64,000 bases of DNA from Tetracentron sinense (taxonomy: Eukaryota > Streptophyta > Magnoliopsida > Trochodendrales > Trochodendraceae). The stretch covers positions 20,528,607 through 20,592,606 of the forward strand of contig CM026568.1 in NCBI GenBank assembly GCA_015143295.1, in the 5' to 3' direction. Below are positions 22,501-52,943 of this stretch, in pieces. Under the pieces are notes generated by a model. The model did no database searches, was not told where the DNA came from, and was given only the letters and a program-made list of their open reading frames with translations. Position numbers and translations under genes: made by a program. Position 1 is the first letter of the stretch. Each line of letters begins with the position of its first letter.

Positions 22501-25500
22501 AATCAAGATAAGGCCACTTATCAAGGCCCTTATCCTCTCCTGGATGTTCTTCTTTAATGCCTTATTCAATGTACTACTCCTCTACCCACGGAGCTGGAGC
22601 ACAAATGTCGAAAGGTGGACCTGCCGACAATAACAGCTCAGTTGAGCATTGATGGCTCAACGTATACTAACTATGAAATAATGATGTTATAATAATAACA
22701 AGATTTCATTTACAATTCATATATCTCAATTATCAAGACACATGCATACTTCAATTCAGAATGCGGAGAAATCAAAACTTCGATATCAATGTGCATACTT
22801 TTTGAAACTATATACTTTACTTTACTTTCTTCGAAAACCAAATGCTTTTACAATTTTCTTTATGTTTTTTACTTTTCAATTTTCATCTTCCATTTTTTTA
22901 CTTAACTTAGCCGAGTTGATCTTTTTACTTGAGATCAGGTAACTAGTGGCTGGACCTGGTCTAAGCACTCTAATATCCTCCCAATAACATCCTTGTTCAT
23001 TATTTTACTTGGGATCAGATGACTAGCGGTTGTAACTGGTCTAAGCACACTAACATCCAACCAATAACATATTTTCCTTTGTTTTACTTGGGATCAGGTG
23101 ACTAGTGGCTGTACCTGGTCTAAGCATACTAACACCCTCCCAATAGCATTTCTTCAATATTTTACTTGGAATCAGATGAATAGTGGTTGTACCTGGTCTA
23201 AGCACACTAACATCCGTCCAATAGCATATTCTTCTTTGGTTTAACTTGAGATCAGATGACTAGTGGATGTGCCTAGTCTAAGCACACTATCATCCTCCTA
23301 ATAGCATCTTTTCTTTCTTTCATCTTGGTTACTTTACTTTTCGGATACCCGTATTAAGACAAAAACCTCGATCATGCAAATTTCAAGTGCTCATATAACA
23401 TTTGTGAGTGACATTTAGGCAATAAGACTTAAATAACATGACACATGCATTTCAATTATCAATTCATAGTTCTAAACATGCTCACATATCATTTAGGCAC
23501 CTAATTCCATCTATTAGATATGCTCTTCATCAAAATTAATGCATCATGTCTCCCCTTTCATCAAGGATTAAGCACATGAACAATTTACGAAAACATTCTT
23601 AAGGACATTGCATCAAACACATTATCTTCATCATTTAATTCAATAAGGAATACTTCTAGATCATTTAATAGAGTTTAACTATTTCAATTCATCATTCTCA
23701 TGCTTTCATTTTCATTTCTCAAGAGGAAATCACAATAAGAATCAATAGTGTAGGATAATCTTCAACACATCATAGAACAACATGATTTTCATCTCAATTT
23801 AAGCTAAAGAATTACAACAACACTATTTAGTAGAGAGTATCGAGCTTCTGAGATCGAATCCCTTCGATCTAGAGTTTTAGAAAGGCTTGTGGAGTGGAAT
23901 CCAAACTTTTCCTTCTCCAAGCTTATTCTATTGAAAACCTAGGTTTTCTCCTCTCCTTTGCCAAATTAGGTGAAAAAGCCTTAGAATATCCTAAACCCTT
24001 AAATTAGATGTCCTATTTATAGTCCAAGGGTTAAAAACTCAAAAATCTGAACTTAGCACAATTTAAAAAAAAATTGTTTTACGATATTTCGTTCGGACGA
24101 AAGTTACATTTGTTCGAACAAAATATTCGTTCGAACAGAAGTGATGCCCTTTGAACGAAAATGGATGTTGATTTCCACTAAATTGAGATTTTCCTGGATT
24201 CGTTCGAACGAATGGGAATTTGTTCGAACGAAGTCTCAGAATTCCATTTTCTTCAGTTTTTGTGTTGTTTGCTCCACCTTTTATACTTTTTAACTATTCC
24301 AATAAATAATTTAAGATAAATTAGTCATCAAGACAATTCATAGACGTTGAGCATGACACATAATTTAATGTTGACCATTTTACCCTTGATCAGTATAGGA
24401 TTTGCATGGATGAAATCTGGGTCTCTACATCATCCCTAACTAAGCAATTTACCTTAATCTCTCTTCTTTCCTCTCTTTCTCTTCTCTTCTCTCCAAACCT
24501 ACAACCTCTAATTCTAAACTCCAACTTGGTATCAGAGCCACAAAGAAGGAGAAGCTTGATAAAACTAGAAGCAACAACCAAGGAAGAGGAGCTCACAGGT
24601 GACATCACCCACCGTACGGTTGACGTCAGCCGAGCGGCCTAGGTTGCCCATTGGGGTATTTTGAAGGTAATATCTTAGAAATCTTGATTTGAGAGGATTT
24701 TTAATCCTATACCATGTGATTTGGTTCAATATTGACTAAGTTATAATGATTTGAAGGAAAAATACAGAAAAAACTCAAAAAAAAAAATTGTTTTGGTTCA
24801 GAATTTTTTTTTGCTCGGATGGGTTACTGTTAATGTTGTTCATTGGTCATGGGTGAACCATTTTTTTTGTTAAGGACATATTAAAACCGAGTTTCCTCCA
24901 TTTGGATGAGATTTGAAGGTGTTATGAGGATTTTTCCAGGCCCCTTAACTACCGTTTTTCATTGTTGAGGTTTTTTCTATACTCTGTTTGCCTATGACAG
25001 CAACTTAGATCACTGTTTTTGGTAATCTTAATACCTATGGACAAGTTTTTGATGAATGATTGATTGGTTGTAGGCGTGACTCCATTTTTCTCTACTTAAG
25101 TTGCTCCTATGAATGCTAAAGTGCTTACTCCGCCGACTCTTTTTAACTCTGTTATCCACTCTATCACCAATATTAAATTCAATGGTGATATTTTTCTTGC
25201 GTGACAATGCTTTGTTGGGTCGTTAAAAAATGGGGTATCTTGATGGTGAGACCCCAAAACCAGCAACTGGTGTTCCTGAGATCGCTAAGTGGAATACTAA
25301 GAATTGCATTATTTTGGGCTGATTATTGAACTCTATAGAATCTTAGATTGCCGGTAATTACATTTTCTATAAGAGTTGTCATGAGCTTTGAGAAGCTCTC
25401 ATTCAGACTTATGCCCTAGTGGAGAACGATGCTCGGATCTATCAACTCACCCGTGAGATTGCTCATTTTCAATAAGGGGCTTTCCTATCTTTGAATATTT

Positions 25501-25622
25501 TGGGGCCCTACAACGTCGTTGGGAAGAATAGAGCCATTATGAAATCCTCTTTGATTATTTTGGGGCTCCTCTTAAATGCTTTGTTTGTTTCCAACATATG
25601 GGAAAAAGGCTTCTCTTAACTT

Positions 25623-25661
<39 letters not shown>

Positions 25662-28600
25662 CTCATGATGTATTTTGGGAGGGAAATTTTTACTAGACTT
25701 TAAACTTATATGAGAGTTTACAAGTTTCCATTAGAGAGTGAGTGATTCCTCTCAAGGATGAGTGATTCCCTAGCTGGTCGAGTGAGTCCTGGGTATCATT
25801 TGGGTTGAGTGATTCCCCAATCTTTTTCTTGTTCCTTAGCTAATTTTCTGATTTAATAATAAGAAATCTCTCATCATTTCTCCCTCAAATTCTCTTTCAT
25901 TTGGTAGTACTTTGTGATCTGGCTTGAATCTACAACCGTCCTGCATCAAAGTCCCAATACCGTATACCCTAGCTTACACACCTTACCTAAACCCAAAAGA
26001 CTCAGAAAATCAGCAATTTCAAGTGTAAATCTTTTCTGGCGGTATTGAGATTCCTGCCAGACTAGAATCACCTTTTTCGGTTTTGGCAGTAATCCCTCTA
26101 CTACCATTCTACATTTTTGTAGCCCAGAGCCAGTCCGTAAACACAATACTGACATTCCCACATTTATGTTTGTTTCAGGTCAATCAATTAGTCACTGAGC
26201 GAACCAAGTCCCAAAAGAAGAAAAATTCCAGAATGTTAGTAATCAAAGTATCGACATACCTTTTTTTTTTATAGTAATTTTGCAGTTGGCGGTAGACCAT
26301 CTACCTCTAACTTACAGTCTCGCCAACCAACAGTTTCCCCATGGGGAGACCTCCCATACCCCTACCAACCCTAATTCTCCTTAATCTTAATCCCCCTAGG
26401 TCCTTAGATACCCATTCTACCCCAACCCTCATTCTCTTCTATAATTTCCCACCCCTTAAGCCTTCAAACTTCACTCCAAAAACCTCCAGAGGAACCTCTT
26501 GCAAATTTGAGAGAGAGAATCCATGTCTCTTAAACCCCCAACCCTTGAACCTTAGAGCTTGAGTAAGTCATTTTAGGGTGGAAGGTCCTAGCTATAACCC
26601 TCTAGGACTACTCCCTTTTTGGCCTAAGCGCACTCACCTCATCTTGGAGCTTTGAGAAAAAGAAGGATACTGGAGGAGCAGGTCTTCCTCCCTCCTCTTT
26701 CATTTTCTTTTTGTATTGCTTATTATATTTCCTTTCTAAGCTAGTTTCCTTTCAAGAAGGCCTACCCTTTGAGAAGAATAATTGAGGCCTCCTATGTTGT
26801 CTACAACATAGGAGGTGTGAGTGTGGGAATTTACCGCCTTTCCATCATGTGGCAATCCTTTTGGAGGAACGGCGCAAAACGCCAATTTTGGAGTCACCAC
26901 CTATTTAGTTTGGGAAAATAAGATCCCGTTTATGTAGAGATTAAGGCCTAGGGCCCGAATTGAGATTCAAGGGTAATAGATTCCATTAAGTTTAGGGGAA
27001 GCTGTTAGGCAACCCCCATCCGAAAATGGTAACCTACTCCTTAAATCGAAGTCAAATTGAGAAAATATAAAGGGAATTCAATATGCTAAGTAAATCTCAT
27101 GTTGAACAAAGAGATATGCATAATAGAGAGATAAAGCAAAGAAAAGGAAGCCTAATCTAGCTGGTTTGAACCCGTAAGGGCTGCCTACGTACCCAAGTTA
27201 ATGGGATCAATCCAAACATAGTTTAAGAGCATGCTAACTATGATTTTGGAGTTATGTGAATTTTTTAAGGATTTTTTGATTTATTTTTAGCAGTTTAGGC
27301 TCATGTGTTGAACATACCCTATGCAGTTTTATCTCGTGTAGGTATGGAGTATGGAATGAGACAAGCCTAGCGTAAACCTAAGGTCATTCCTAGGTCATTG
27401 GGACAACAGCAAAAACCAATGTATTATTTGGTTACAAAACAAAACAACATTGCAGATTTCTATCCAGAAAAAAACAGCAATCTTACAGAGGACAGAAGTC
27501 GGTCATCCGGACTTCAAATGGGTCCCTGTTTTTTGCTGTGTTCCTCATATCTTACCTAGTTTAACACGTAGAAAATCCAGATTTTTTGGATTAGGGGAAG
27601 TCTGACTGTCCAGCAAGTTACTATGTCATTTTAAACTATAGGTATTGGAATCTGATTTCAGATGAGTGCAAAGCCATTTATTTCAGTTTCCAGAGGTCCA
27701 AAATAGCCTAGATATAAAATTTTATTAGTTTCTGAATTTGGTAGGGGGTCCATTAGATTTTACAAAGTCCACGCATGTACTGAGTAAAATATAAGGGAAA
27801 AGCCCTAACTAGTGAGTGAAAGCTCACCCTTTGGCTGCAAACAAACCAAAGAGGACGTGCCTCCACTGATTTGGGGCCTCCTACCTTGCTGGCTTGCTCC
27901 AAGGCAAACGGCTAATTATCTACCCATAATCCATGCTTATGTAAGAGGCACAAGAAGATGGAAATGAAAGGGTTTTAGAGAAAAGCCATACTTACATAAA
28001 ACCACCCGACAGTATGTCGCTCCTAATCACCTTCCGAAGCCTCCTTGTTTAAAGTCCTCTAAGTAAGAAACTTAAGGATCTATTTTCTTAATAAGGTTGA
28101 TGGCCTAAGCTTGAGGGACTAGGGAAAAAGGGAGAGGGATTTTTAACTTAGGTAAATGTGTTGCTAAGGGATATTGGTTTTTGGAGAGAGTTTTCCTCTA
28201 AGGCAAAAGAGAGCTAAAGGGGTTTTCCCAGTAAGGCCAAGAGTCTTTCCTAAGAGGTTTAAGGGCTTTAGAGAATGGATTTCCAACTAAGGCCAGTGTG
28301 GTCTCTAAGGGGCTAAGAGATGAGTATTTATAGGAAAGCTATGGGTTGGGGTATGTCTATTACATGGGGGGTAAGGAGTTAGTAGGTAAAGAGTTGAGTG
28401 TTGTAAGGGGTGTAAGAGAGGGGGTGAGTTGTCAAAGGGATAGAACGATATAGATGTGGTGTGTGTATTTTAGGGGTGTAGGGGATGAGTTGTCAAAGGG
28501 AGAGAAGGAGAGAGAGTGGTGTGTTAGGAATGTCAGCACCCAATGTTTGTACCCCCTTCTCCCTGCTTTCTTCAATGTTCCAAAGCACCGATCCAAGCCC

Positions 28601-31600
28601 AAATATCTTGCTTCATGCCCCAAACACCCAAATTAAGCCCAATCCCAAACCCAGTTCAAAAGACCAATTTTTTAAGCCATTTTTCAACCTATTCGTTCGA
28701 ACGAATCCACCATTGTTCGAACGATGCCAATTAATATTGGGCAGTTTTCCAGTAGCCTTTTTTAGTTCGAAGGAAAGATAGATCATTCAAACGAATCATG
28801 GTTTGTTCGAACGATCCTAACTTCGTTCGAACGATTTGTTCGCAATCAGTTTTAAAAAAAAGGTTTAAACCCTAATTAGGTCATCCATTTCGCCCATGAC
28901 ATCACCCCACACTTCCCAACCTATTCCAAACCCTTTAAAAACCTATAAATAAGCCCCCATTCCAAGAGCAAAACCGTAATCCCAAAAATCCTTAATAGAG
29001 AGCTCCCAAACCCTAATTCAAGCCCTAATTCACCCCCACCTCCTTCAACCTTCAAACCTAATTTACTCTATCTCCTTAAACCCTCATCAATTCAAATCAC
29101 TTTTCTAACCTGAATCTCAATCCTTCCAAGAGCTTGAGGCTACCCCTCATTGAAGATGACTTCCATTGAAGACACCTTGAAGCTTGGAGATCAAGGGAGT
29201 AGGGTAGGTTTTCACCTCACCCTTTCCATCTTCCATTTGCATTATTTTCTTCAGCTTAATCTCTGTAATTTTACTTTGGAGTTGTCTTTTACTTTCCATT
29301 TTAGGGTTCTAGTCCTTTTCTAGACCCATTTTGGGAGTCTCATCCTCTTCCTTGGGTGGGTCTCTCTACACCAATCTTATGGTATAGAGGGACCCCATTA
29401 ACAAGGGAGGATGAGCTATTTTCTCTTTCCTTTGCTGTATTTTGATTTATTTCCTTGTGGAAGCCTCATTCCCTCTCGGATACAGGTTTCTCTATACTAA
29501 TCTCATAGCATAGAGAAACCCATTTCCAAAAGAGAGAGGACTTCCACTTCCTTTCCCGCATCATTTTGCATTTCCGTATTTGCTTTCTAGCTTAATTTCC
29601 CTTCTAATTGGACCCATAATCCCCCTAGGTTGACTAGATTTTTTGTTAGAATTCCTTAGAATCCCTCAAAACTTGAAAAATACAGTTCTAGGCAGATTCG
29701 TTAGAACGAACCCCTATTCGTTTGAACGAATCTGGTCTAGAAAAAGTTCTGGTTTCAGTTTCGTTCGAACAATCTTCTGGTCGTTCGAACAAACGTAAAC
29801 CAGTGGCTAGATTTTGACCTCTAGACTCATCTTAGGTTAATTTTGACCCTAGTTAGCCTCCCAACCCTCTTATGCTCCGAAATAAGCCATAAACTACAAG
29901 AATAACCCAGAAACAAGATTTTGTTGAGCAACAGAACTGGTTTTGTTCGAACGAATCCCAATTTGTTCGAATGAAGCCAGGTTCTGAACATTCCAGAGCC
30001 TAGTTTCATTTAAACGAACCTAGATTCGTTCGAATGAACCTGATCCAAAATTGATCATTTGAGACTCTGGTTAACCCTTTTGATCCCTTAGGCTGGCCTT
30101 AGGTTAGTTTTTAACGCCGGTTAACTTCCCTACCCTTCTCATGCTCCGAAATGAGCCATAAACTGCTATTTAAAATCCAAAAATCATGATAAAAAACCCA
30201 AAACAATATAAAATCAACATACCAAAGTCAGTCAATCAAGCCGTGCTCCGAAATGAGCCTAAAACTACCATTTACTCTGAAATGAGTCATAAACTACGTT
30301 ACTCTGAAATGAGTCTTAAACTACGATCATCACCCTCCTTTGGAAGAACTACTCCGGTCTGATCCCGCCAAGCCGGGTATGTAGGCAATCTGAACAAGGG
30401 TCCGACCTCCACCTAGGATAAAGACCCTTCTCTTTTCCCTTCTAAATTAGCATACTCTAAATCACTTAGACAATTTCTTTTGATTCAAACGTGGTTTGGC
30501 TTAGACTTAGGGAGTAGGTAACCATCTTAGGATGGGTGTTCTAGGGTGCCTAACACCTTCCCCCAGACTTAATCAAATCGCTTACCTAGAATCTCAACTC
30601 AGACTGTAGGCCCTTATTCATCTTTTCCTGGGTTCCTATTTCTCTTATTATTAAATAGATGATGACTCCTAATTGAGGCGTTAGCGTCGTTCCTTCGCAA
30701 GGCTCAACTCGGAAGGAAAGGCGGTAAATTTCATGCTCACAAGGAATTTAGGATGAATTTACTTGTGAAAGAGGGATTTGATATGATGGTGGAGTTGTGA
30801 TGTAGGATAATTGGTAGAAGGTTTCATGGAGCAATTACAGCGTCAGAAACCAAACGAGCTACTCGACAAGAACTCTGATTTTTCGTTAGCTTGATTTATT
30901 GTATTTTATTTTACTTTTGTCCTTTTTCGTAACTTCTTATTTAAATTGTTTTAGGGTTTTGATTAGAGTTATAAATAGGGTTATATCAAACTTATTGAGG
31001 AATTATTCAGCTGTCATTAATATTATCTCTGTTAAGAGCTTTTCATCTCTGGTGTATTCCAATTTTAAGGTTATAGGCGTCGGTATTAACCGATCTTTGT
31101 TTCACGCTACGTCAAGTTGAGTGTTGGAACTAAGTGAGTGGGTGGGATGATGTTGGGTTGTGTGTTGAGAACATGTGAGTAGGTGAGATATGATGACCGG
31201 GTTGAGTGTTGAGATCATTAAGTGGGTGAGATGGATCATGGACCATGGATATGCGGTTGTGAGGGTAAATGGGCTATGGGCCATGGACCATGGGTAATGG
31301 GTCATGGATTGAGTTATAAATTTTAAGGTCTAGGATTTTAAAGGCTTTAAGGTTTAGGGTTTTAAAGGCTCAAGGTTTAGGATTTCAAAGGCTTAGGAGG
31401 AAAGTCCTAGGGTATGAGATGGGGTTCTATGGTTTGGAAATAGTCAAAGGGTTTAGGAATGGTCCTAGGATTTGGGGATTTCTCCTAGGGTATTGGTGAA
31501 GGGGGGTCTTAGGTTTAAGAATGGTCATAGGGTTTGGAAATGCTCCTAGGGTGCGTTTGGATTTGTGGAATTGGTGGACGGAATTGGTAATTTTGTTCTT

Positions 31601-34600
31601 GAATTCCAATTCTTTCGTTTGGCTTGTACTATACAAAAGACTGGAATTGGAATCGTTAATTCCGCACGGAATTGAAGCAGTGATTTCATAAGCTAAATGA
31701 ACAAAATTCAAATCCTTACTGAGAGGTCTTACTTGACAATTCCACATTGTTATGGAATTGAGGAAAAGACATGAACGTTATGAAAATCTCTCTCCAACTA
31801 CTTATCGAATGAGATAAATGAATAATAATTTAATACATTAAATAATTTTAATTATAATTTATAATAATAATTAAATTTGATATATAATTTACTATATTAA
31901 ATAATTATTATTATAAATTAATAAATAAAATTATAAGTAATAAACTAAATAATAATAATAATAATAATTATTATTATTATAATTATATAATAATATTTAA
32001 ATTTAATATATTAAATAATAATAATAGCAATATTTATATTTAATAAATAATAATTTAATATAATTAATATTTTTATTTATTTTATTTTATTTAAATCAAA
32101 ATTTAATACATAAAATAATATTTATAAATTATAAAAAGTACATAAAATAATAATTATTAATTAAAATTTAATAAATATATTACTTATATAATTATATAAG
32201 AAATTAAAATATACACATAAAATAATAATTTAATGCATAAAATAATTATTATAATTTATAATTTTAATGAATATATTACTTGTATAATTATACATTCTTA
32301 TTATTATTTTCAAATTAGAATTTCAAACTTTTATTTAATATTTACTAAATATCGTATGTAAGTAACAATTGAATACTTAAATTAATAATAATTTATAATA
32401 ATATTTAAATTTAAAAATAATAATAGTAATATTTATATTTCATAAATATTAATTTAATACATTAAATAATTATTATAAATTCTATTTTTTATAAATATAT
32501 TACTTAAATAATTACATATCCTTATTATTATATTCAAATTAGAATTAAAAAAATTTATTTTAAAATTTACTAAATACCTCAAATAATAATTGAATGCATA
32601 AAATAATAACTATAAGTTATCACAATATTAAAATTTAATACATAATAAATTATAATTGGAAATTAAAATAATATTTAAATTTAATAAATATATTACTTGC
32701 ATAATTATTTATTCCTATTATTATATTCATATTATGTTTTGCATAATTTTTATTTATCCAAATTTCATCTAATCAATAGTGCATCCAAATGATAGAATTA
32801 TAAATTCTGATGAATTCAATTCAATGGATTTCAATTCCTCAGAATTCAATTCTTTAGGTCAATTCCAATTCCACAAATCCAAACACAACCCTAGGGTTTT
32901 TGTAAAAATGGGTCTTAGGTTTTGAAAATAGGGGTCCTTGGGTTTGGAAGGAATTTGAAAAGGAGGTCCTAGGGTTTGGAAGGAGGTGATACCTCAAGGC
33001 CCTAGAGGGGTGGAAAAATGGGGTGTTTATAGAGGTCCCTATGAAAAGAAAGAGGGTGGGTACTTTTTTTTGTTTTTTTAGCGTGTATTCTTTTTTTTTT
33101 TCATGTAATATGGATGCAAATGAGCCCATGAGTGAGGCTAAAATCCCAAAGGAAGTTGCTCTCCAAGGAACATCATAGTATGTTGTTTGCACCATTTGGA
33201 CGGCATTTGTTCTAGTGCCAATCCCCATTTAGTCATTATGGGTATTGGCGGTAGAACTTTTACCGCCAATATTGAGCAGTGCATAAAATAATGCAATGAC
33301 CCCTTCCTAAGAAATTTTTGAAGCACCCAGTGTCTCCAAACCCTCTGGGGTGGTCTTCATTCGGACTACACCTAGGAAAGTGTTGATTTCAACATTGTTC
33401 AAGATTGGCGGTTCTGTGTTTACTGCTAATCTGAACGGTACTGAAAATAGCACCGTCCCCTTAGCTTTCATTCCTCAATGGTTCACCAGACCCCTTGGAA
33501 TGGTGTTAGGCTCCCTTTGAATCCAACTAAGCCAGAGTAGTGTTGATTTCAACACTATCTTGATCTGGCGGTATTGTAATTGCCGCCAGGTTGGACAATG
33601 CTGAAAACAGCACTACCCTTGAGCCCTTGTGCCTCCCAACAAACCACTAATATACCTTCCTCAATTCCCCCAACCTGCTGAAATTCCTTGAATTCATTTT
33701 GGACTAGTCCCGAGATAGAAAGGAGGCTTCAAAATCCCCCTATTTAGATTTGGCAGCAATCTCAGTACTGTCATTGTCATTTTGCATAGCTAAATTAATG
33801 GCGACACTAAGATTACCTCCATTCTAGACAGTGTTGTAAAACAATACTGATCTTCTCATTTTGGGTAATCTATGGACATTCCTTTAGGTCCCTTCTTTGT
33901 CTCGGGGTTCTTCCAGTATCCGTGAATCATTTTTTACCCCACTTAGGTTTGTTTTTAACTATAGTTAACTTTCCAAAACCCCTATGCTTCATGCATGAAC
34001 TTAAACTACTAAATAAAAGCCCAGAACTCCAAAAAACATTCACATAATCCCAAAATCAATGTTAGCATGCTCTATGAACTACACTTGATCCAATTTATTT
34101 GAGTATGTAGGCAACCTTAACGGTCCATCCCACCTTGGATAGATTTCATTTTCTTGTTCCCTCTATCAACTAAGCATTGTTTGTCATTTAATTTAGCATG
34201 GTTAAATAGCGCATTCGAATTCCCTTACAATTTCCCTTATTTGGCTTAGAGTTAAGGAGTAGGTTACCATCTTAGGATCGGGGTTTAGAGGTGTCTAATT
34301 CTTAATATCTTCTCCTAAACTTAATGGAATCTCTTACTCTAAAATCTCAATTTGACTTTAGGCCTTATCCTCACAATTAAGGGACCCTATTTCCTCCCTA
34401 CTTTTAACGTCATTCCTCTTAAGAGATTGTCTCGGGATGGAAAGACGGTAAATTCCCATGCTCACACTTTGATTTTGGTTTCATTAGAAAGATAAATCAA
34501 CTAGCTACCCAATGAGCCCCAGATCATGTGATTTGGACATGATTTGAGAAAGTCATGGTTTGGTCGGTTGGGTGCGGGATTGTGATGAGATTTTTATTTA

Positions 34601-37600
34601 GATTCATAATTTAGAAAAGTTATTATTTTTACTTGTTTTTATGGGTAAAGAGATTTAAAATTAGTATAAGAGTAGGTTCACAAATGGGTGAACAAAAGAA
34701 AAAAAATGTAAAAGAAAGAATTGGCTGGGTACGAGATTGTGACGGGATTTTCAATTTTTCATTGCTTCTTTAGTACTTGAATGGTTCAAAAACCCGAAAA
34801 CTCGACTCGGCTCGAAAGTTAACCGGGTCGACTAACTCGAAAAAGAAAAAAAAACTCAACTCGGTCAAACTCAGAATATATATGTAATAACTTGAAAAAC
34901 TTGGGTTAAAAGAACTCAAAGTACGTTGGTTTTACAACCTCAAACCTATAAACTAGGTTTAACAGAACCCATAGTAAGTCGTCTTTGTAGGCCCAAAAAC
35001 ATATGATGCAAATATAGTATGGCGTTTAAGTTTATGTTTAAAAGAATGATAAAATTACCCTTTTGTGACTCGACCTAATTTGGCGAGATGAAAAACTCGA
35101 TTCGACTGAGTCACGTGAGTAACTCGGCAAATAGTGTCTCATTCGAGTTTTGAGGCGATTCGACTCGATTCAGTCGAGTTGAGTAACTAAGTTACTCGAG
35201 TGACCCACCAAAATTTTGAACTATTGAAGCATGGCTCAAAATATCGGTTGGATATGCCGGAAAAATTTAAGAAATGCTAAGAAACACTTGGATATGTAAG
35301 GAAAAAATTGAATACTTTGCATACAACCCTTTTTAATGTAAATATAAGTTAAAAAGAAATGAAATGAAGGTCGCCAACTACATTTATAACCATATATATG
35401 AGAGAAAAATTTTATTAGTTAAAAGGCGATCATGCTGATAAACAAGTTTAAAAACACAAACAATAGTCATTAACCAGGTGTATGCAATACAATCTAGATA
35501 TTAAAACCTTACATTCAATGAATCAAACAAGAAAGTATTAAATTACAATCATAATGTAAATTACATATATGATACAAACTCAATACCACATTCAGCTTCT
35601 TCTTGGCTTGAACGGTGTGGGCTCAGGAACTGAATAAATTGATACATTATAAGTGAGCTAAGCATATTGATAATAATGTGACCAACTCATGTGAACGTGG
35701 TATATAGACTGGTATAGATGTTTATACACTGATGTGAGACCTGTGAAATTTGTTCATAAATGTCACTCGATGCTTGAGACTTAGCATGTGGTGACCCAAT
35801 ACCATATATAAGCCAATTTGTGAAATATTTTCATTAGTCTTGTGTTTTAATAATGTTTTGACATATTAAAAATTATGAGCCCTTAAGATTTGAAAAAAAC
35901 CTTGCAATTTAGAAGTTGAAATTTGGTTTAGACAGCTAAAAACCCTGTTTTAACCTTAAACTAGAAATTTGGATTTTGATTATTTTGGAATTGAAGTGTC
36001 GTGCCCCAAAATCCCACCTAGGTTAAAGTGAGACCCTGACACGTGACTTATACATCATACCATCCTGTTAGAAACATTCAAGGCAACTAAAATATGAACT
36101 TGAAAATTTTTCCTCAATTACTAATAATTGATACTTCAAACTGAGCATTCATAAGAATCCATAACTAAACTAAATATGAAAATCTGAATTATCCATTGTG
36201 ATTTTCCAACATCAATTTAACATAACCTTAAATCTATAACTAAATTCAATTACAATTCCTTGAATTCAATTAACTGCTAATAAATCAAAATCCATTGTAC
36301 GACTAACGGTCAAGATTTCATTCCCCCTCAAGATAATCACCTGTCGGATCTTCCTCTACGTGCTCTTCCACTTCCTACTATTCAGGTGCGCAAATATCGA
36401 ACCTCGAACCTACTGAAAATAACAGTTCGGTTGAGTATTGAAAACACTCAGCGTATATGAACTCGTAACTAACAATATTATAAACATTAATGTAAGGCAT
36501 AAAACATGAATTAACAATACATGTACATATACATAAATCAGAGTGTGGAAATATATTTTCTTTTCAATTCTTTCATGTGTTCACTTGTACTTGTCTTTCT
36601 TACTTTTCTAATATGTCCTTGTCTTACTTTTCTAACTTGTCTTCTTTGTCCGTGAGTATATTCAACAACATACACTGTGCAATAACTTAAAATAACTTTA
36701 TCCCATATATGGGTAAAGATTAACATATACTTTACTTACCGAGGTATGAAAGCTTTAACACATTTTCCGTTGTATACGGTTTAGCACATTATCCGATGCG
36801 CACGACTTGCTTGTGATTAACTTGCTGGACTTTTCTTGCCTTGATCTTGGACTTAGTGGTACTCAGACAGTGCAAAACTCAATAATATACTCATTTTTGT
36901 GTACTTATATACTTGTGTAAATACTTGTAATCGTGCTTTTCATCCTGCTTGTACATATCCGTTGCCGTGAGTGAGTGTGAGCGAACAATAATAACCCTTG
37001 GTTAAATCACACCTTAAATTATCGGTCAAGGGCTCTTGAAGATTCATCATAACGACTAATGCCACCATGATAATACTCTTAAGTCACACAACCATAATTC
37101 AAGACTTGTTTTAACCAAACATATATCATCCTTGCAACTTGTAAATTATACATCAAAATAAAACATATCATAAATCTCGTGGTTGGTAAATTTAAAGCAT
37201 GCTCGATAGGGTTTTTACAATAAAATGATGAAAACAAATCAACAATCATTCATCAATTCCACGTATATAATTGCATAAATTTAATTTGACAAAAACTCTA
37301 ATTTCACAACATATCACAATTTTTGCATCACGATCATAAGCATCCCATCAAATCCAACATTCATCCCTTCCACCATTCTCCATCATACATACACCACAAA
37401 ATATTCCCTTTCTCATTTGATATACATAATGGAAAACATAATGAGAACGTCTCTAAAAATCATGATAATCTTACGTAAGGGATATACATAATATAAACAT
37501 GCTTTGATCTATTTATTACTTTAAATCTAAATCTTTTATTCTTATTTACATCAATGATTATCCTATTGATAGAAGGGAATCCATATTTGTCTCTCTTGAT

Positions 37601-37940
37601 CGCTTTCCTATGATCTAGCACTTGTGAATGAGCTCAATCTAGATCTTCACGCTCTTTTCCTTATTCTTTAATTCGATCTTGTGATCTCTAGGTCTTCCCT
37701 ATTTAAATCTCTCAAAATAATCTCTTCTCTCTCTTTTAGGTTTAAAAAGCTTTGGGAACCCTAAACTCACGAAATAAAGACTATATATAGAGTTTAGGAC
37801 TCAAGGAAAGTTAAAAAGTCGGAAAAACACACTTCTTGAGAAAATCACCGCATGGGGGATTGATTGGTTGTTGTGCGCCGATCGATCGGAGTCGCCGGCG
37901 ATCAATCGACGGCGGTGTGCCGATCGATCAGTTGTCGCCG

Positions 37941-37980
<40 letters not shown>

Positions 37981-40900
37981 ATTTTAAAACTCTTTTGCTA
38001 CTTTTTGATTAGCTTCAATTTTATATAATTTAATCCCAAAAAGGGCTAATAAAGAATGAATTATTTGAGTTTTAACATCTAAACATCTCACACTAATTCC
38101 TATATAAACAATTCATTAAAATTTAACACATTTTTCTAGGAAATCAATTAAATAGTATGAATGCCGAGAAAAATAAATTCGGGTCTCTACATGAAGTTTG
38201 AGAGTATTTTTAATTATTTAAATTTGGGGGGGGGGGGGGGGGGTTACCCAACATATGCTTAGAAACTTTTTGTAAAGATTAAATGTAAGTCTTTTTTTTA
38301 ATGAAATGTTAGTTGACTTTTTGACCCAGTAGATGAAAATATTTTTGAAGACTAAAATATGAGACTTTTCTTACTGGATTTTTGAGTTTTAATAATGTTT
38401 TGATATAGTAGAATTTATGAAATTTTAGGATTTGCTAAATACCTTAGCATTTGAAAATTAAAATTTTGACCCAATCTATAAAAAGTGGATTTGGATATTG
38501 AACTAGAAAGTTGACTTTTTATTCTTAAGGAATTTGAATCTAGGATAATTTTTATTGAATTCAAATGGGGTTATAATCTTATTTACATATAAATATTGGC
38601 CAATACGCACGATACGGGTCAATACTATGTCAATATAGGGCATTTTTTTTATTCATGTGTTTCTATATGTTAGATAAGCTCAAACCCGATATGTATCAAC
38701 TGATATGTATCGATATTTTGAACTTTGTTTGAGAGACTAATCATGTAATAGATTAATCATTGTAATAATTTTTTTTCCCAAAAAAACTTAACATATGCTC
38801 TATTTGACTTTTGCATATTATAATATCTTTCAATTATGGATTTTTTTATTTAGTGTTGTTTGCATTATATATATTTTTATCCAGTTTGTTCCCTCTTGCA
38901 ATCTCTCATATCATTTTTCATATAAATTTGAAAATTAAATAATATGTTAAATAAAAGAAAATATTCCCGTGTCCTCGAATCCTACTTTTTGAGATTCACT
39001 AAATCTGATACCTCACATCCGTGTCGGTTTCCGACACTCGTGTCTATGTCTATGCAACCTAGGCTTTGTCCATTGGAAGATGACAAGAACATCAATGCAA
39101 GCAAAACCTTTACTGGTTATATACAAACTGATTTAAGTGCGATAATTGGTTAGTGTAGCCATCTCTATTGTTACTAAATCTGTTTTGGGCATGCTGGAAT
39201 ATGAATAAGGTTAGTTTTTTAATATAGTATCAAATATTAAACCACAAATCATGTAGGTAGTTTAGGGCCATTTTCTTAAGTCTCTTCGGCATCGAGTAGT
39301 TCTCAAAAAGTTGCAGGGTCTCTCTAGCATGAAAATAAAAATCGCCGAAACTGATACGAAACAGGCGATACGTATAGGTTTTGATAGCTCCCTATACGAT
39401 ATTTATACTGATACGAAACTGGCGATATGTATTGTTTATTAGTAATTAATGTTTTAATGCATTGTGTAATTGTAATTGTGTTCGCTACTTTGTCTTTGAG
39501 TCTCTTCCTATGACTTTATATTTGGTAAATTTGGTTCCTATAACTCATTTATTTATTTGTGAAATTTAATTTGATTTTTTTTAAAAAATAAAATTTTATA
39601 TGTATCGTCCGAAACGATACTAAAACCGATACGTATAGGTTTCGGTTGGGACCGATACATCCCCTGAAACCTTATTTTTAATCCTTGCTCTCTAGTGGGT
39701 TCATTCAGCCAAGAGGTAAGGTACTTTGGAAGTTGACCCATTTGCACTTTATGAGGTGCGTAATCCTCATCATCAAATTTGTTGTCTTATACCAAATGTT
39801 TAGGAATACATATGACGTTACTTTTGGGGACAGGAAAACGTCTAAAAGATCCAACTTTGTAGGGCATCAAAAAATTTATTTTCAGATGGACTTTATTTTT
39901 AAAAACCTATGTCTGTTTTGGTTCAGTTCTTGTCCTTAAGAGGATTTGTGCTGCCAACTGCAAATAATTGGTTGAACATGGAGGTGATAAAGAGCCCATC
40001 CTCAATGCCAATTTTATCAGAAGATGAACATGGAGGTTACTTGTATGAATTGATGCTCTGTTGGAGTTTGGCAATAACATGCATGTCTATATATATATAT
40101 ATCAAGTTCTTAATTTATGTGTGTCATATTTCCTCTTAATCTTCAGCAAAATAAATGCTCCATGGCAGTATAACATCCTCCGTCAAGAATTCATAGATTA
40201 TGTTGGATAGAGCTGATAAAGAGCAGAAATTTTATCTAGAGTCTGGGAATTACAAGTACCATATATTTATCTGATTGAGCTGTTCTCGATTCATGCATGT
40301 GCACCTTTTCCTTTTTGTTCCCTACTATGGGGCCCAAGTACCTATCAAACAAGTTTCATGCCTCTAATTTAACAGAAGGATGAGCATTAAGACAAGGTCG
40401 CGCAGATCGTCAAACATTTTTTTATGGGTATGGTGGCCTGAAGGATGCCTTCAGGAATATCTTACCAATTTGTAATGCAACTAACTTCTAGTCTTGGTAC
40501 TAGGTGATTATTGATTTTGTCCCAATATTTGCTATATACTCATTTTTTTTCTTCTGAAATTAGTATTGAAATTGATTACCTCTTCCATTTTTGTGAATTT
40601 TGCAGCTTCTTGAACCTGTAAGACACATAAGGTTATTGGAAGCCTTATACGGTCTTCTGATGTTGCTACCGCAGGTACAACTAAATATTAATACTGTTTT
40701 CATCCATGCCGCCTTCTTAGTCTGTGTATGCCATACATGAACTCGCCATTATTATATCCATGCCCGTAAAGCTGTGAGTTAATCTTCTTGTGTAAAGGAA
40801 AATTGTATTTTGGCAATTTGACTTCGTTAATCTTGAAAATCTTTGAACACACACTAAAAAAATAGGGAAAAGAGGAAATACCTTTTGAAAGGTGAAATGG

Positions 40901-43261: not shown

Positions 43262-43422
43262 GGTACCCTCAAATATACTTTCAAATACTAACCCTTCAAT
43301 TCAAATAATTAAGGTAAAAGATTAGAGCTGATGTGACTTTAGAAAATGATAAAATAAGCCAAGCTAAATCTAATTTTGATCCTTAATTATTTGAATTAAA
43401 GGGTTGGGTTTTGGGAGTATCC
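43262..43422. mobile_element. Foldback MITE, copy 1 of a two-copy family
   Basis: Starts GGTACCCTCAAA and ends TTTGGGAGTATCC. Inverted arms hold ACCCTTCAATTCAAATAATT and AATTATTTGAATTAAAGGGT. The middle (GATGTGACTTTAGAAAAT...AAGCCAAGCTAAAT) matches 53571-53711. Confidence 0.75.
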
Positions 43423-47187: not shown

Positions 47188-47192
47188 AACAT

Positions 47193-47440
47193 ACTTAGAA
47201 AAATCTCTTCTCCAACTTGGGCTACTTGTTTTGCCCTACCTCTATATACATGATTAAAACCATGGTTAGCCTCCTAATATATCTGATTAAAACTAATTCT
47301 ACAAATGGGCTCGGGGCTGCTTAGCTAACCAGACAGCTACTTGATTAGCCTCACACATATCTTAGTGCATTGTAGTTTTTCCTTTTAACATCGATGCTCA
47401 ATAGTGTCGACTCACTATTAGGGGATGGCTGGTCAACTTG

Positions 47441-47471
<31 letters not shown>

Positions 47472-47903
47472 TATATTATAAAATTAAATAATAATAAAAA
47501 AAATGATTTCTGAGTTGGGAAGGATAGCTAGTCAACTTGATTAAGAAGAATCGAAATTGTGCATGTGACATGGAGAATATTTATGATGCTAAGATGTGTA
47601 TATGTGAATATGAAGCCAACATGTGTATTTGTGTGTGTGTGTGAGAGAGAGAGACATCAAATTGACTTATAATCTATAAATTAATTAAATAAATTGAATG
47701 GATGCAATGTATCTTTTCATATGTATTAGCCATTGGGATTCTTCCCAATGATGTGGAAGTGTAAGACAGAAATTGCAACTACAACAACCACAATTTTTCT
47801 AAAGAGATAAGCCAAGAGTTAGATTCCAGATTCACCCTTTCAAGATAATTAAAGATCCCTTCCTCCCTCTTGTGGCTGTTGTGATTCTGAATTATTATCT
47901 CTA
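47193..47903. other. Intergenic with microsatellite
   Basis: An AAT repeat lies at about 47440-47470 and TGTG/GAGA runs near 47630-47655. No gene was recognised. Confidence 0.4.
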
Positions 47904-48938
47904 TCTCCACTAATATAATGAGAATTCTCGATGTTCAAAATGTTGATTGAAAGTATAATATCTAAAATACCCTTACATGAAATGATTATAAATAAATATG
48001 CAAAAGAAAATTTGTAAGAAACTAATTTTTTGTAGTCATTTCCTCCCTCACTCTGTATCCCTTTTCTACCCCACTCTCTCCTGTATAGAGATTGAATCAG
48101 CCAATCGTGATTGAACTCGAGTTCAATTGCACTGACATTCAATTGCACCCTCATGTCAACACATGCCTATTTTAATTCTTATTAACCATAGTTAAGATTT
48201 ATTGACCCTTAATGTTCAATAATCTAATCTTGATTTTTAGAAATTATTTTTTTTATAAAAAATAAGTTTAGGTTAACGTGTCCCCTTTAGCCTTTATTAA
48301 CTGTGGTTAAGATTTTTTAACCCTTAGGGTTCAACAATCAAATCTTGGTTTTTAAATTATTATTTTTTAAAATAAGCTTAGGGTTTAAATTTCTTAACCC
48401 TTGGTTTCTTTTTTTAAATATTTTTTTTCTACACATGCCTATTTTAATTCTTACTAACCGTAGTTAAGATTTATTGACCCTTAGGGTTCAATAATCTAAT
48501 CTTTGATTTTTGGAAATTATTTTTTTTTATAAAAAATAAGCTTAGGTTATCGTGTCCTCTTTAACCTTTATTAACAGTGGTTAAGATTTATTAACCCTTA
48601 GGGTTCAACAATCAAATCTTGGTTTTTAAATTATTATTTTTTAAAATAACAGTAGGGTTTAAATTTCTTAACCCTTGGGTTACTTTTTTTAAATATTTTT
48701 TTTTCTAAAAACTAAGGTTAGATTGTTAAATCATAAGAGTTAATAAATCTTAACCACGATTAAGATGAGTTAAAATGTATACGTGTTGTGATTGAGCTCT
48801 CCTTAAGTTAGCCAGAGGCCAACATGTTTCTCTCCCTTTCACACACGTGCATTACATTGGTCACACTAGCGTGGCTCACACTTTCTTCTCTCTCTCCCTC
48901 TTCCCTATCTCACGTGCATAGCACGTGCAGCCCACCAG
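47904..48938 (+). mobile_element. Non-autonomous Helitron, about 1.03 kb
   Basis: Starts TCTCCACTAATATAATGAG after an A. Ends with hairpin CACGTGC-ATA-GCACGTG followed by CAGCCCACCAG and a T. This matches the 5' TC and 3' hairpin plus CTRR-like end of Helitrons, inserted between A and T (the last four bases are CCAG, one off CTAG). It shares ends and interior (AGCCAATCG.GATTGAACTCG) with 54457-54833. It contains a 272-bp tandem duplication and no Rep/helicase. Confidence 0.7.
48159..48702. repeat. 272-bp tandem duplication inside the Helitron
   Basis: Copies start ACACATGCCTATTTTAATTC at 48159 and 48431. Each itself contains two diverged half-units (AACCCTTAGGGTTCAA.AATC and similar), so the array grew in two steps. 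Confidence 0.85.
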
Positions 48939-50398
48939 TTATTATTTAAAGGAAGAAACTTCTACATAACATTAAAAGGTACAAATAATATTCTGTTATT
49001 TGTATATTTTGTAGGCAAAACAGCAATTTTAGCTTGAACCAAGCTATCTGGATTCTGGATTACACTAACTCAATGTTATCAAGGTTAGTTAACACGAAAG
49101 GCACCGTTAAGCGATGGTTTGATTAACTTGCTTAAAGAGACATAAGCATGATTTTGAGATATTTAATGGAATTATAATTTTGTTTGATAACTTTCCTAAG
49201 TCTGACATACAACAAAATGCTGGATTCCATTCTCTGTGTCTTACAACAGTTGTGTATAAGCGCAATGTAATTACTTAAGCAAAAACATACTTAGATTAGA
49301 AAATTTTGTTATATAGGAATGTACCCTTAGATATTTCCTGTTAAGGAAGAATGAATCGCTCTCGAATAGGAATCTATTAAATATTAAAATTATTAATTAA
49401 ATCAAGGTGTTCTATATATGGTGGAGTAGGGGTGGCAATTCTGACGCGGCATTCCACAACTAGACTGTTTTTACGTGGATGTGAATTTGATTTTCTCAAC
49501 GAGTTTATAATTGGGTTGAAGAGGAGTCATCGTGGGTGCAACGCTTGATGTTGCTACCCGTTTCGAAGGTTAAGAAAAAATATTTAAAAAAAGGAAAAAG
49601 TTATGGTCTCAAGTCTCAACAAGGTTAAGGTAATAAAAAAAAATTGAAACATCCCAACTGCATTGAGACTTTGAAAGTTTGCGTATGGGGCTAGCGTTTC
49701 TGGCGAGTTGAATATAGGTTAAGCACCTCGAATGGATATTTATCAATAATTTTATACGATAATTTCAATTATTAAAGCCCTTTTTTTTGTTTTGGTTTGA
49801 TTTTGCCTCTTTCAACCTATTATTAACATGGGTTGGATTAGATACCCATGGTATCCTTAATCAACCCAAAACTAACCTAACCCAAACCAACTCAAATCCA
49901 ACCCTTGTCATACCGTGGAAGGTGGGGAAGAAAAATATATATATATATATATTAAAGTCTTTCTTGATGGTACATGGTGGCCAAACACTTTGGAAGCCAA
50001 CACCTACTCGCGCTCTCTCTCTTTATTCCTTATAGTCACTATAGCAGTGTTAATATCCTATCATCGGTTAGAAGCCCAGAGGCCTAACATTTTATAAAGA
50101 ATGGATTTTTCAACTGTCACACCATGTGAAAATGATTACCAGACTATTCAAGCGGGCGGGGATTAACACTGGGACTGGTACAATATGGAGGTGTGAACTG
50201 AAGCCAACACTTCCTGGTCAATATATTTAGTGAAGCAGCCTCCACGACAAAAAAGTGACTAAATCCGATGATTCTGACCGCCCAGTCTTGTAAAAAGTCG
50301 TCAATTTTGGGATGGTGAAGTCCACTTGATCAGATTCATAAACACCTCATGTGTACAGGCAGTTTCATCTTGTCCTGGAACCAAATTTTCTACAAAAG
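48939..50398. other. Intergenic, no gene recognised
   Basis: Mostly AT-rich; a short TA run lies near 49930. No family was recognised. Confidence 0.35.
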
Positions 50399-50760
50399 TC
50401 AAAAGTATAATGATCCAATGGTCATGGCTCATGATCATCATAACAAAGTAGGGTCAGTTCTAGGGTGTAAACAAGCCGAGTTGAGCTGAGCCTCAAAAGT
50501 ATAATGATCCAATGGTCATGACTCATGATCATCGTAATGAAGTAGGGTCGGCGGTTCTAGGGTGTAAACAAGCCAAGTTGAGCTGAGCTGGGTGTTGCTC
50601 AAGCTCGGCTCATGACATTATATTCTGGCTCAAGCTTATCTTGAGCTCAATTCGAGTCCTCGAATGTTCGTTTTGAGTTCGGCTCGTCTATAGATAATTG
50701 AGCTTAGATCGGCTTGCGATCTTGCATTATTATTTTAGACTCGTTTATCCTAATAAATAA
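50399..50760. repeat. 94-bp tandem duplication and GAGCT-rich MITE-like repeat
   Basis: TCAAAAGTATAATGATCCAA starts copies at 50399 and 50493. Each copy ends in GGTGTAAACAAGCC.AGTTGAGCTGAG, the typical left end of a GAGCTCGGCT-rich repeat seen in many plants. The second copy continues into that repeat to about 50760. Confidence 0.7.
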
Positions 50761-52139
50761 AAAAATTCAAATCAAAATCTTAAGAGTTAAACATGCTTAG
50801 GAGATTACATTCCGAGAGGAATCGAGCCAGCTCACGATCTGGCTCGGCTCATTGACTGTTCTCATGTGAAGGCGAGAAGCTCTACAGTTATCTTTAAAGG
50901 CCTTATGGAGAGGGCCCAGGCATCGTACGGTAGGGATTCTTCCACGTAAGGCATGACCGTCGACTACTGGACAATGGATCAACTACAAGAAAATCTCTCA
51001 TCTCAGCACGCAGACGATGACCTCATTGGCATTTGGGATTTCCAAAGTCGCTGGTGGGTCCCATTCGTTTAGGACACGCCAAAACCCCGGAAACTTGGAC
51101 GCTTCGATACCAACGGCACGTGTCGGTGATTACGATGTCCTCTCCTCCCAAAACTATCCCAACAATCTTTGCCGTACAATTAGAGTCCTCTCACACCGGC
51201 TCAGCAAGTCTTCTTAATAGTTAGGAGGCAACTATACATGAAGTCTTTCTGGGTCAAACAAAGGTTAAAAACTCTCATTTTAAAAGTAAATTTCAAAGCA
51301 TTTGTAGCCACTAGCCAGCAATCCCATTGCCTTATCAAATTGACTATACTACCCTTCTAATTTTTTTTGGAAGATAATACCCTTCTAAGTTGCCGAAGCA
51401 TTGAATTGGCTAAGTTTAAAATATTCTCACCAAATATTTTGAATTTCACAAAATCTTGAAGTTCCACAAAATTTTTGAAATTTTGTGAAGATAAATTATT
51501 AGTTTTTCGTTATATGTGAATTTTTTCTAGTATTTTTTTATAAAGTTATCAAATGTAAATCAATTATTTAATTGTTAAATATAATATTTAATTTTTATAA
51601 TTAAATTAATATAACCTATTAAATTTAAATGTAATATTTTGGATTTAATAATTAAAAGTTTCTTTATAAAAATAAAATAATTATAGTTATCAAATGAATT
51701 CCTAGCATTTAAGTATTTAAAAAAAAATTAAATAAGTAGTAGAAGTGTTTAAGAGTCTTAAGCACCTAATTTATTAGGTATCCTAGTATAAACCTAATAA
51801 TTTAAATTAAAAGATAAGATTACCTTTATAAAATTAACAAATTATAATTACTGAGTGAGTAAGTGTTTAATGGTCTTTTTAAGTATCCTAACTTATTACC
51901 TATCCTATTATAGTTATGAATAAATATTTAATTAAATTTGTAATCTGATAAATAATTTATTTATTTTATTTTTAAAACAAAACCCTAAAATTTTAGAAAA
52001 AAATCGCAAATTTTTTACTAAGATCTTAGAAATTTTGATATACTTTCGTAAATATTGGTAATTTAATAATAATTTATATATATATAAAAAGAAACTGTAA
52101 GGGATAAAATTCGTAAAAACTGTTTAACGTTGGGGAACG
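50761..52139. other. Intergenic, no gene recognised
   Basis: Short open frames at 51017-51224 show no family similarity that I can see. From 51420 on the sequence is strongly AT-rich and repetitive. Confidence 0.35.
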
Positions 52140-52943
52140 AGCTGGCTTTTGTTGTTTTGTGCACAAAGGTGACACGTGGATGTGTGTTTGAGTCACGTGC
52201 TTAAAATAGAAGGCTACACAATATCTGATGCATAGCGTTCACGTTGTACAAATTAAGACGTATCCGTGGTCTTGCGAAACAACGTTCTCGTTGTGGTTTT
52301 GACAACGAATCCGTTGTCTTGTGCACAACGTAGACGTTGTATTCTCGACAACGTTTTCAGTGTTAATTGAACAACGAGCCCGTCGTGATTCAGATAAGGT
52401 TGTCTAGGTCATATTTTAAGACATATACAACGTACTCGAGCTCGAGTCAACAACGAGACCGACTCGCAGGAGGGAATAATCAGGAGGCGATCGATTGTTC
52501 TGACAAGTGGGCCGAAAGCACTGCCTCGACATTTAATGCAGGTCACTTCTATGTGCTGTCAGACTCAACCGACTGAACTAATGGTAGGCTTTCACTTGTG
52601 ATGCAACAGGTGGTAGATTTTACTGACATATTTGGTAATGAGTGCAGGGCACGTGGTATGGGCATCTATGGTCATTTATGACCATACCAAGGTTAACCTA
52701 TAAATACCCCGAGAATTTCAGTGTTACAGAGATCGAAAGATAGACATAATTTTCAGTACTCCTATTTGCTTTACTGTTCATCATCTTCTTCATCTACTTA
52801 CTTTATCATCGGAGTACAGGTCAGGGTATCACACCCTTCAACTTCTACCTTTTACCAGTAAACCAGAGGTGAACAGTTGCAGCTGACACGTGTCATTTCT
52901 GGTATTTTTCCCCCTCAGAAACCAACACTATATTGATCGAAAA
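52140..52943 (+). mobile_element. LTR-like unit with dyad array and TATA box
   Basis: Fossil. A TATAAATA box lies at 52699-52706, a leader follows, and the right end is CCCCTCAGAAACCAACA at about 52943. The left end was not fixed and no matching target duplication was found. The dyad array at 52232-52386 lies upstream of the TATA box. A solo or truncated LTR is the likeliest reading. Confidence 0.5.
52232..52386. promoter_or_regulatory. Seven dyads ACAACG-N4-CGTTGT, 23-bp period
   Basis: Dyad centres lie at about 52239.5, 52262.5, 52286.5, 52309.5, 52332.5, 52355.5 and 52378.5, that is 23, 24, 23, 23, 23, 23 bp apart. Arms are ACAACG and CGTTGT (the outer units are slightly degenerate). The 4-bp centres all differ: TTCA, TATC, TTCT, AATC, TAGA, TTTT, AGCC. 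Conserved arms with free centres suggest binding by a dimer. Confidence 0.85.

Follow-up and report, generated by a model that had tools for sequence, protein, structure and literature searches.

Arrays of short palindromes (dyads) are described here in the long terminal repeats (LTRs) of a window of Tetracentron sinense DNA, the whole analyzed stretch of 64,000 nucleotides from contig CM026568.1 of assembly GCA_015143295.1; positions count from the window start. The window reads as plant-like DNA with many LTR retrotransposons. Seven LTR units were examined, namely LTRs A through F (Table 1) and a Copia pair. An array was recognized in five of them, with 14 dyad copies in LTR B, 7 each in C and F, 5 or 6 in D, and 4 in E (solo or interrupted LTRs, with no linker region). 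None was recognized in the short Copia LTRs (15195 and 21906) or in the delimited part of LTR A. In keeping their half-sites at a nearly constant pitch while the spacers are close to random in identity, the arrays look like rows of putative protein sites and not like decaying duplications.

Dyad words and their conservation

The most frequent word among the arrays is TTCGTTCGAACGAA, a perfect 14-bp palindrome. With up to three mismatches allowed, it was matched 20 times in the window; 100 shuffles of the window gave 1.89 matches on average and never more than 7. Nineteen of these matches fall inside three arrays (that of LTR D and both of LTR B, B1 and B2), and this one palindrome is common to two LTR families, D and B. 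At most two mismatches are present in 16 of the 20, while 40 simulated windows together gave 6 such matches. Between neighbors no more than 100 bp apart, the gap is exactly 20 bp in 9 of 15 cases, the rest being 21, 17, 73, 50, 43, and 43 bp.

The other arrays carry other words. The TGGCGGTA-N7-TACCGCCA word of LTR C has 7 matches against 0.09 expected, three in the 5′ array (C5) and four in the 3′ array (C3). ACAACG-N4-CGTTGT, the word of LTR F, has 23 matches in the window against 14.1 expected, a number reached in 1 of 100 shuffles. Matches to the 12-bp word of LTR E are unusually clustered, as three within 60 bp were found in none of 3,000 local random sequences.

Generic scans place these words in context. 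Exact repeated dyads with 5-bp arms form 19 families in the window, versus 0.37 per shuffled window (60 shuffles); 7 lie in the named arrays and 12 elsewhere, 11 of the latter within tandem, segmental, or inverted duplications. A looser scan gave 26 clusters of at least four dyad-like members, compared with a mean of 9.6 and a maximum of 15 in 30 shuffled windows, and did not recover the E array or C5. Its biggest cluster (10 members) is a tandem repeat at 48.3 to 48.8 kb, outside the recognized LTRs, and an AT-rich cluster of 6 members lies near 51.5 to 52.0 kb. Because shuffled clusters reach 7 members and this tandem repeat 10, cluster size is not the mark of the arrays; they are distinguished by word quality and by the contrast between dyad and spacer.

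That contrast was measured as pairwise identity. The 19 TTCGTTCGAACGAA units show 0.81 in dyad columns, a value inflated by their selection by match, and 0.27 in the flanks, which is near random and unaffected by the selection. In the F array, half-sites and other columns show 0.90 and 0.29, respectively, for the five best units, whose six ACAACG bases are all identical, and 0.52 and 0.27 for all seven. The four E units, placed in the register of their measured gaps (22, 20, and 22 bp), show 0.81 in the core and 0.39 in the remaining columns; a fixed 21-bp register for this array gave no contrast (0.33 versus 0.36) and was dropped. As symmetric bases are kept and spacers are near random, plain tandem duplication is disfavored.

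The ratio of observed to expected CpG is 1.9 to 2.3 in the D, B1, E, and F arrays, versus 0.53 in the whole window, and all four are, with others, among the 25 CpG-richest 200-bp bins. Thirty substitutions from the 14-bp consensus comprise 18 CpG transitions, 3 other changes at CpG positions, and 9 changes elsewhere, and this decay of CpG through transitions suggests that the arrays were methylated in the past.

Table 1. Array-bearing LTRs of the window, their arrays and promoter elements, and LTR A
Feature	Positions	Strand	Description
LTR D	22245-24429	-	2185 bp, TGTAGAGACCC...GGGTCGTGACA, termini read
LTR D tandem units	22923-23327	-	Five of about 80 bp; LTR positions 1103-1507
LTR D TATA box	24014-24022	-	CTATAAATA; LTR position 408; the array ends about 64 bp upstream
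LTR D U3 array	24088-24232	-	Five TTCGTTCGAACGAA dyads and a degenerate sixth near 24148; LTR positions 198-342
LTR C 5′ part, probable	25915-26815	+	CTTTG duplication at 25910-25914; single CTTTGTG candidate for the start (chance expectation about 0.8); tentative
LTR C upstream array (C5)	26037-26309	+	Three TGGCGGTA-N7-TACCGCCA-like dyads, overlooked in the preliminary description
LTR A	26816-28525	-	3′ end at 26816, TATA box at 28325-28333; presumed nested host of LTR B
LTR B	28531-30741	+	Solo, 2211 bp; AGGAA duplication at 28526-28530 and 30742-30746
LTR B first array (B1)	28692-28835	+	Six dyads, gaps of 20, 50, 20, 20, and 20; LTR positions 162-305
LTR B TATA box	28943-28951	+	CTATAAATA; LTR position 413
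LTR B second array (B2)	29697-30038	+	Eight dyads in four 20-bp-spaced doublets; LTR positions 1167-1508
LTR C second array (C3)	33246-33821	+	Four dyads of the TGGCGGTA-N7-TACCGCCA type and other dyads
LTR C 3′ end	33994-34466	+	Homologous to the ends at 26816 and 30741; CTTTG duplication follows
LTR E	35997-38191	-	Solo, 2195 bp; TGAAG target duplication on both sides
LTR E TATA-like site	37781-37790	-	CTATATATAG, identical on both strands; LTR position 402
LTR E array	37858-37931	-	Four GATCGATC-like cores (CCGATCGATCGG), gaps of 22, 20, and 22; LTR positions 261-334
LTR F, tentative	52096-52917	+	822 bp; GAAAC duplication
LTR F array	52233-52386	+	Seven 23-bp units ACAACG-N4-CGTTGT, the first two degenerate
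LTR F TATA box	52698-52706	+	CTATAAATA; array about 310 bp upstream

LTR layout and orientation

Arrays lie upstream of the TATA box in four LTRs: B (first array), D, E, and F. LTRs D, E, and B are alike in length, in the position of the TATA box, and in that of the first array, which ends 64 to 108 bp upstream of the core promoter; the boundaries of LTR B were set without using this likeness. The TGTAGAGACCC end is common to LTRs D and E, whose 3′ blocks align at 67 to 71%. LTR E was assigned its strand by homology to D, since CTATATATAG reads alike both ways, and on that strand its array ends 67 bp upstream of the TATA-like site. The tandem repeat of LTR D occupies the slot that B2 has in LTR B, with a GACYAG-N9-CTRGTC dyad kept in three of its five units; the corresponding slot in LTR E holds a single weak dyad only. 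Within B2, the block pattern repeats after about 245 bp, and the flanking DNA is duplicated as well. A lone CTATATA is found on the opposite (plus) strand of LTR D at 22808. No target duplication was found for LTR D, as its flanking 5-mers, CTATA and TCATC, are unmatched.

Between 26.8 and 34.5 kb, our map departs from that of the preliminary description in the number and orientation of LTRs, with B1 and B2 now belonging to one plus-strand LTR (B). The ends at 30741, 26816, and 34466 are mutually homologous. The TGTGAG ends had been taken as LTR starts, a reading rejected here for A and B on the strand of their TATA boxes: the CTATAAATA of LTR A is on the minus strand (its plus strand has two ATATAAA matches), and the TATA matches of LTR B are confined to the plus strand. 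When these sequences are read as LTR ends, a conserved block of 240 to 400 bp becomes 3′ in both A and B, and LTR B gains its target duplication. The start of LTR B is the single AGGAATG candidate in 22 to 30.7 kb (about 0.5 expected by chance). The upper end of LTR A was not found.

LTR C probably runs from 25915 to 34466, interrupted by LTR A (with LTR B inside it) and by an element resembling a miniature inverted-repeat transposable element (MITE). In our judgment, it is likely to be a plus-strand LTR, an orientation preferred because of its homology to A and B, its CTTTG duplication, and the dyad word shared by C5. The plus strand offers only a weak TATA-like CTATAATT at 26439, and a minus-strand TATA-like site at 33026 would suit the orientation given in the preliminary description. 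On the plus strand, C3 probably lies downstream of the promoter. Among seven exact candidates for LTR F, the one adopted was selected for the imperfect inverted repeats at its ends.

Other features

Several further features adjoin these LTRs. A 28-bp inverted repeat, CCTCCTATGTTGTCTACAACATAGGAGG, with perfect 13-bp arms, occupies 26788 to 26815 and ends exactly at the start of LTR A, which may have inserted at this palindrome. The MITE-like element in LTR C (31552 to 32889) is AT rich and 1.34 kb long, with imperfect terminal inverted repeats (TGCGTTTGGATTTGTGGAATTGG at the left) and a 7-bp duplication, CCTAGGG, on both sides. In LTR B, the segment from 29291 to 29580, between the TATA box and the second array, contains the strongest RNA fold of the window (-59.7 kcal/mol in 110 nt), formed by two large imperfect hairpins, GGTCTCTCTACACC...GGTATAGAGGGACC and GGTTTCTCTATACT.... 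Copia remains at 24430 to 25600 include a primer-binding site, TGGTATCAGAGC, at 24527, followed by sequence that is gag-like by eye; LTR D seems to lie within the LTR of these remains.

Elsewhere, a degenerate Copia element occupies 15195 to 22134, with short LTRs that are 92% identical and fragments of gag-pol open reading frames (ORFs; by eye). The tandem repeat at 48156 to 48783 (115/274-bp units) contains GTTAA-N6-TTAAC dyads in 20-bp-spaced pairs, has an inverted copy, and is outside the recognized LTRs. A MITE-like inverted repeat pair at 6236 to 6527 has a very stable fold (-55 kcal/mol), and two perfect 91-bp tandem copies are at 10567 to 10756.

Scans of viral and of bacterial and archaeal genome contigs have no bearing on plants; neither set contained an exact tandem TTCGTTCGAACGAA pair. 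Among the viral contigs, GTTCGAAC triplets were found in four, TGCCTAACACCTTCCC in four, and a TGTCACGACCC-type end in one that is phage-like by eye from its ORFs. One of the contigs with GTTCGAAC triplets (L001, 14.5 kb, with phage-like ORFs) carries at 416 to 493 four copies of AACGTTCGAACGTT, another GTTCGAAC palindrome, with gaps of 22, 21, and 21 bp, an array of the same kind in an unrelated element.

Interpretation

We lean toward reading each array as a row of putative sites through which dimeric DNA-binding proteins would drive or gate transcription from the LTR promoter. Dimeric, presumably host, proteins would bind the palindrome clusters in the LTR control region, and element transcription would rise as neighboring sites are filled. 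The slot would be retained while the dyad word differs between related LTRs, and LTR B, and probably C, would hold a second block of its own word in the part to be transcribed. The arrays themselves, their spacing, the kept dyad bases beside near-random spacers, the placement relative to TATA boxes, the CpG richness of four arrays, and a decay made up largely of CpG transitions are direct observations; from them we infer protein binding, its dimeric form, activation, any assignment of a factor, and inheritance of the slot. HSF, NAC, and MYB proteins were considered as candidate readers. A reading of TTCGAA as a LIN54/TCX (CHR) site was set aside as a poor fit, since the optimum TTYRAA needs Y = T or R = A (PMC4974476).

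All six arrays listed in the preliminary description are present, and its idea of modular, dimer-type dyad arrays upstream of TATA boxes is supported in LTRs B, D, E, and F. The spacings it gave of about 70 bp above the TATA box in two 2.2-kb LTRs (64 bp in D and 67 bp in E) and about 310 bp in F also hold. Three of its generalizations need revision. The array was said always to lie upstream of the TATA box, which fails because B2, and probably C3, lies downstream of the promoter. The modules were said to line up on one helix face, but the units of F are 23 bp apart, which makes 2.2 turns (at 10.5 bp each) and a rotation of about 70 degrees per site, so helix-face alignment is not general. Separate acquisition by at least three LTR families was proposed; the layout shared by D, E, and B weakens the case for independence, since the slot may have been inherited and only the word changed.

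Several observations weigh against rows of protein sites that act on the promoter. Some 750 bp separate B2 from the TATA box upstream of it, which places this block in the would-be transcribed part of LTR B, and downstream blocks fit poorly with a pure upstream-enhancer role. Both C arrays are CpG poor (observed to expected ratios of 0.59 and 0.36), and B2 reaches 1.18. The E word, by count, is unremarkable, with 7 matches in the window against 5.6 expected and at least 7 in 31 of 100 shuffles. In the loose scan, B2 has 7 members and D, B1, and F have 6 each, none exceeding the largest shuffled cluster of 7. Pairing within dyads is kept in 91 of 112 pairs versus a shuffle mean of 90.9, as expected from independent decay of columns; with compensatory change within dyads absent, the dimer gains no support there. 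All eight stretches folded as RNA beat nearly all of 200 shuffles (z of -2.9 to -10.4). The evidence base is, moreover, five array-bearing LTRs of one window.

A more specific plan, which we hold to be doubtful, is that a 2.2-kb, probably Ty3/Gypsy, lineage has two slots: a fixed array before the TATA box and a second one about 750 bp after it with the same word, the words being exchanged between relatives and the slot kept. Its words would be TTCGTTCGAACGAA, CCGATCGATCGG, and GGCGGTA-N7-TACCGCC, the last of which departs from the 20- to 22-bp pitch. Word exchange at a kept slot would be expected of LTRs that change from one reading factor to another.

An RNA role is unlikely, although the folding speaks for it: adjacent palindromes would form long transcript hairpins that feed small RNAs or serve packaging or dimerization. 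Four of the seven array blocks (B2, C3, E, and F) fold below -40 kcal/mol, the second half of B2 (29940 to 30040) folds end to end with its spacer and the first half as separate hairpins, and palindrome clusters in maize Sirevirus LTRs attract small RNAs (PMC10760457). Any palindrome array folds, however, so this stability is not independent evidence. D, B1, and C5 fall short of -40 kcal/mol; among 18 merged regions with 110-nt windows below that value, 7 overlap array blocks and 11 are outside, the strongest lying between arrays. Doublet partners are paired in 102 of 126 cases, no more than column shuffling gives on average (102.2), so compensation is not seen there either, and covariation as a discriminator between DNA and RNA gave a signal in neither direction, for dyads or doublet partners. 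Nor do RNA hairpins require a near-constant pitch of 20 to 23 bp.

We regard it as quite unlikely that the arrays are targets not of an activator but of an anti-silencing protein that recognizes specific sequences, like that of the Arabidopsis VANDAL elements. The targets of VANC are arrays of short motifs in noncoding DNA, often in tandem repeats that vary between relatives (PMC5735166); here too the word varies between related LTRs, four arrays are CpG dense, and the LTR B blocks flank the promoter on both sides. VANDALs, however, are DNA transposons that encode VANC, and the LTRs here are solo or interrupted and lack a coding region (no search was aimed at a gene of the VANC kind). The loss of CpG through transitions, with the past methylation that it suggests, also fits poorly.

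Least probable of these, and very unlikely in our view, is a neutral by-product, in which tandem duplication or slippage gave repeats that are palindromic by chance. The approximately 80-bp tandem repeat of LTR D, the recurrence in B2 with its duplicated flanks, and dyad clusters elsewhere, including that at 48.3 to 48.8 kb, would suit it, but dyads are kept and spacers are near random for three different words, which already disfavored it above. An origin of the palindromes as insertion targets was rejected, as merely a slight preference is reported in PMC6911290.

Relation to known elements

The preliminary description knew of no account of this class of array. Plant LTRs in which cis elements recur ahead of the TATA box are known, as with the activator boxes of Tnt1 and Tto1, which have much shorter LTRs and few copies, and Sirevirus palindromes are the subject of a 2016 paper in Genome Research. 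Symmetry of Tnt1 box I is mentioned by Bousios et al. 2010 (PMC2829016), who describe arrays of the present kind for Sireviruses: 13 of these have palindromic repeated motifs in many copies per element, with nearly one word per element, and the motifs cluster in the LTR half that precedes the TATA box, where they make up local CpG islands. In the parts of that paper drawn on here, the motifs are absent from the other Copia elements compared, and a common factor was not found.

Likeness to Sireviruses lies in the clustering of a palindromic motif ahead of the TATA box, seen in D, E, F, and the first array of B. As to CpG, the D, B1, E, and F arrays are locally rich, B2 is intermediate, and the C arrays are poor. 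The half-site GCGGTA/TACCGC of the Sirevirus Inga resembles the LTR C dyad. The CGG-CCG core of 12 of the 13 Sireviruses (PMC2829016) is absent from TTCGTTCGAACGAA and ACAACG-N4-CGTTGT and is in reversed order in LTR E (CCG..CGG), so only LTR C (GGCGGTA..TACCGCC) fits; ACAATCGATTGT of the Sirevirus Tnd-1 is likewise without it. Sireviruses have at least 8 copies per element; the solo or interrupted LTRs here, counted without a linker region, have 14 (B) or 4 to 7 (the other four). Sirevirus LTRs are 0.54 to 1.68 kb long (ten lengths in the table of PMC2829016), in contrast to 2.2 kb for D, E, and B. The block downstream of the promoter in LTR B also differs from the Sirevirus plan. The marks of the genus are the polypurine tract AGGGGGAG, the primer-binding site TATCAGAGC, and gag-pol, and the LTRs here are solo or interrupted, without an internal region.

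Outside Sireviruses, a 2023 paper (PMC10760457) reports that the cis-regulatory regions of transposable element families are often arrays of repeats, sometimes palindromic, and, in the portion drawn on, that maize Ty3 elements are generally without an obvious peak of palindrome structures. Among Ty3/Gypsy elements, Del/Tekay LTRs are 1.1 to 4.8 kb long, a range that includes D, E, and B. Many Del LTRs of monocots have variable CpG islands in their 5′ part; in the parts of Cruz et al. 2014 (PMC4029996) used here, eudicot members have none, and the islands are not described as dyad arrays. The short U3 of D, E, and B (TATA box at 402 to 413) resembles that of Retrosat2, the one Del/Tekay member known to have a short U3 in the sources drawn on, whose 3292-bp LTR has a U3 of 244 bp, a TATA box near the U3 end, and a long R-U5 (PMC3485330). 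The Del/Tekay U5 end (GGG at -8 to -10 and a terminal ACA) is fitted by E, shifted by one base in D, and lacks GGG in B. Del/Tekay is defined by a chromodomain integrase and reverse transcriptase phylogeny, and the array-bearing LTRs here are known without a coding region; with none attached, their lineage is unproven.

In VANDAL elements, the target arrays of VANC likewise turn over in motif and copy number between relatives (Hosaka et al. 2017, PMC5735166). Their motif, YAGTATTAY, is not a long palindrome and is read by a protein that the element encodes. LTRs E and B, with TG..CA ends and 5-bp duplications, are not VANDAL DNA transposons.

A description of dyad arrays in Gypsy LTRs was not found in the literature searched, which lay mostly outside subscription journals. 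The design is a known one, and what is new is its presence in LTRs of 2.2 kb that are not Sirevirus-like in appearance, the second block downstream of a promoter, and the palindrome common to two LTR families. The present yield is a few non-Sirevirus-looking examples and a corrected LTR map. The two-slot plan, if true, would carry the Sirevirus architecture into another superfamily. If the pattern holds genome-wide, palindrome arrays before the TATA box would not be peculiar to Sireviruses; they would be a general solution that several lineages with long plant LTRs had either arrived at or inherited, and a shared slot with changing words would allow the switching of host transcription factors under silencing pressure to be tested.

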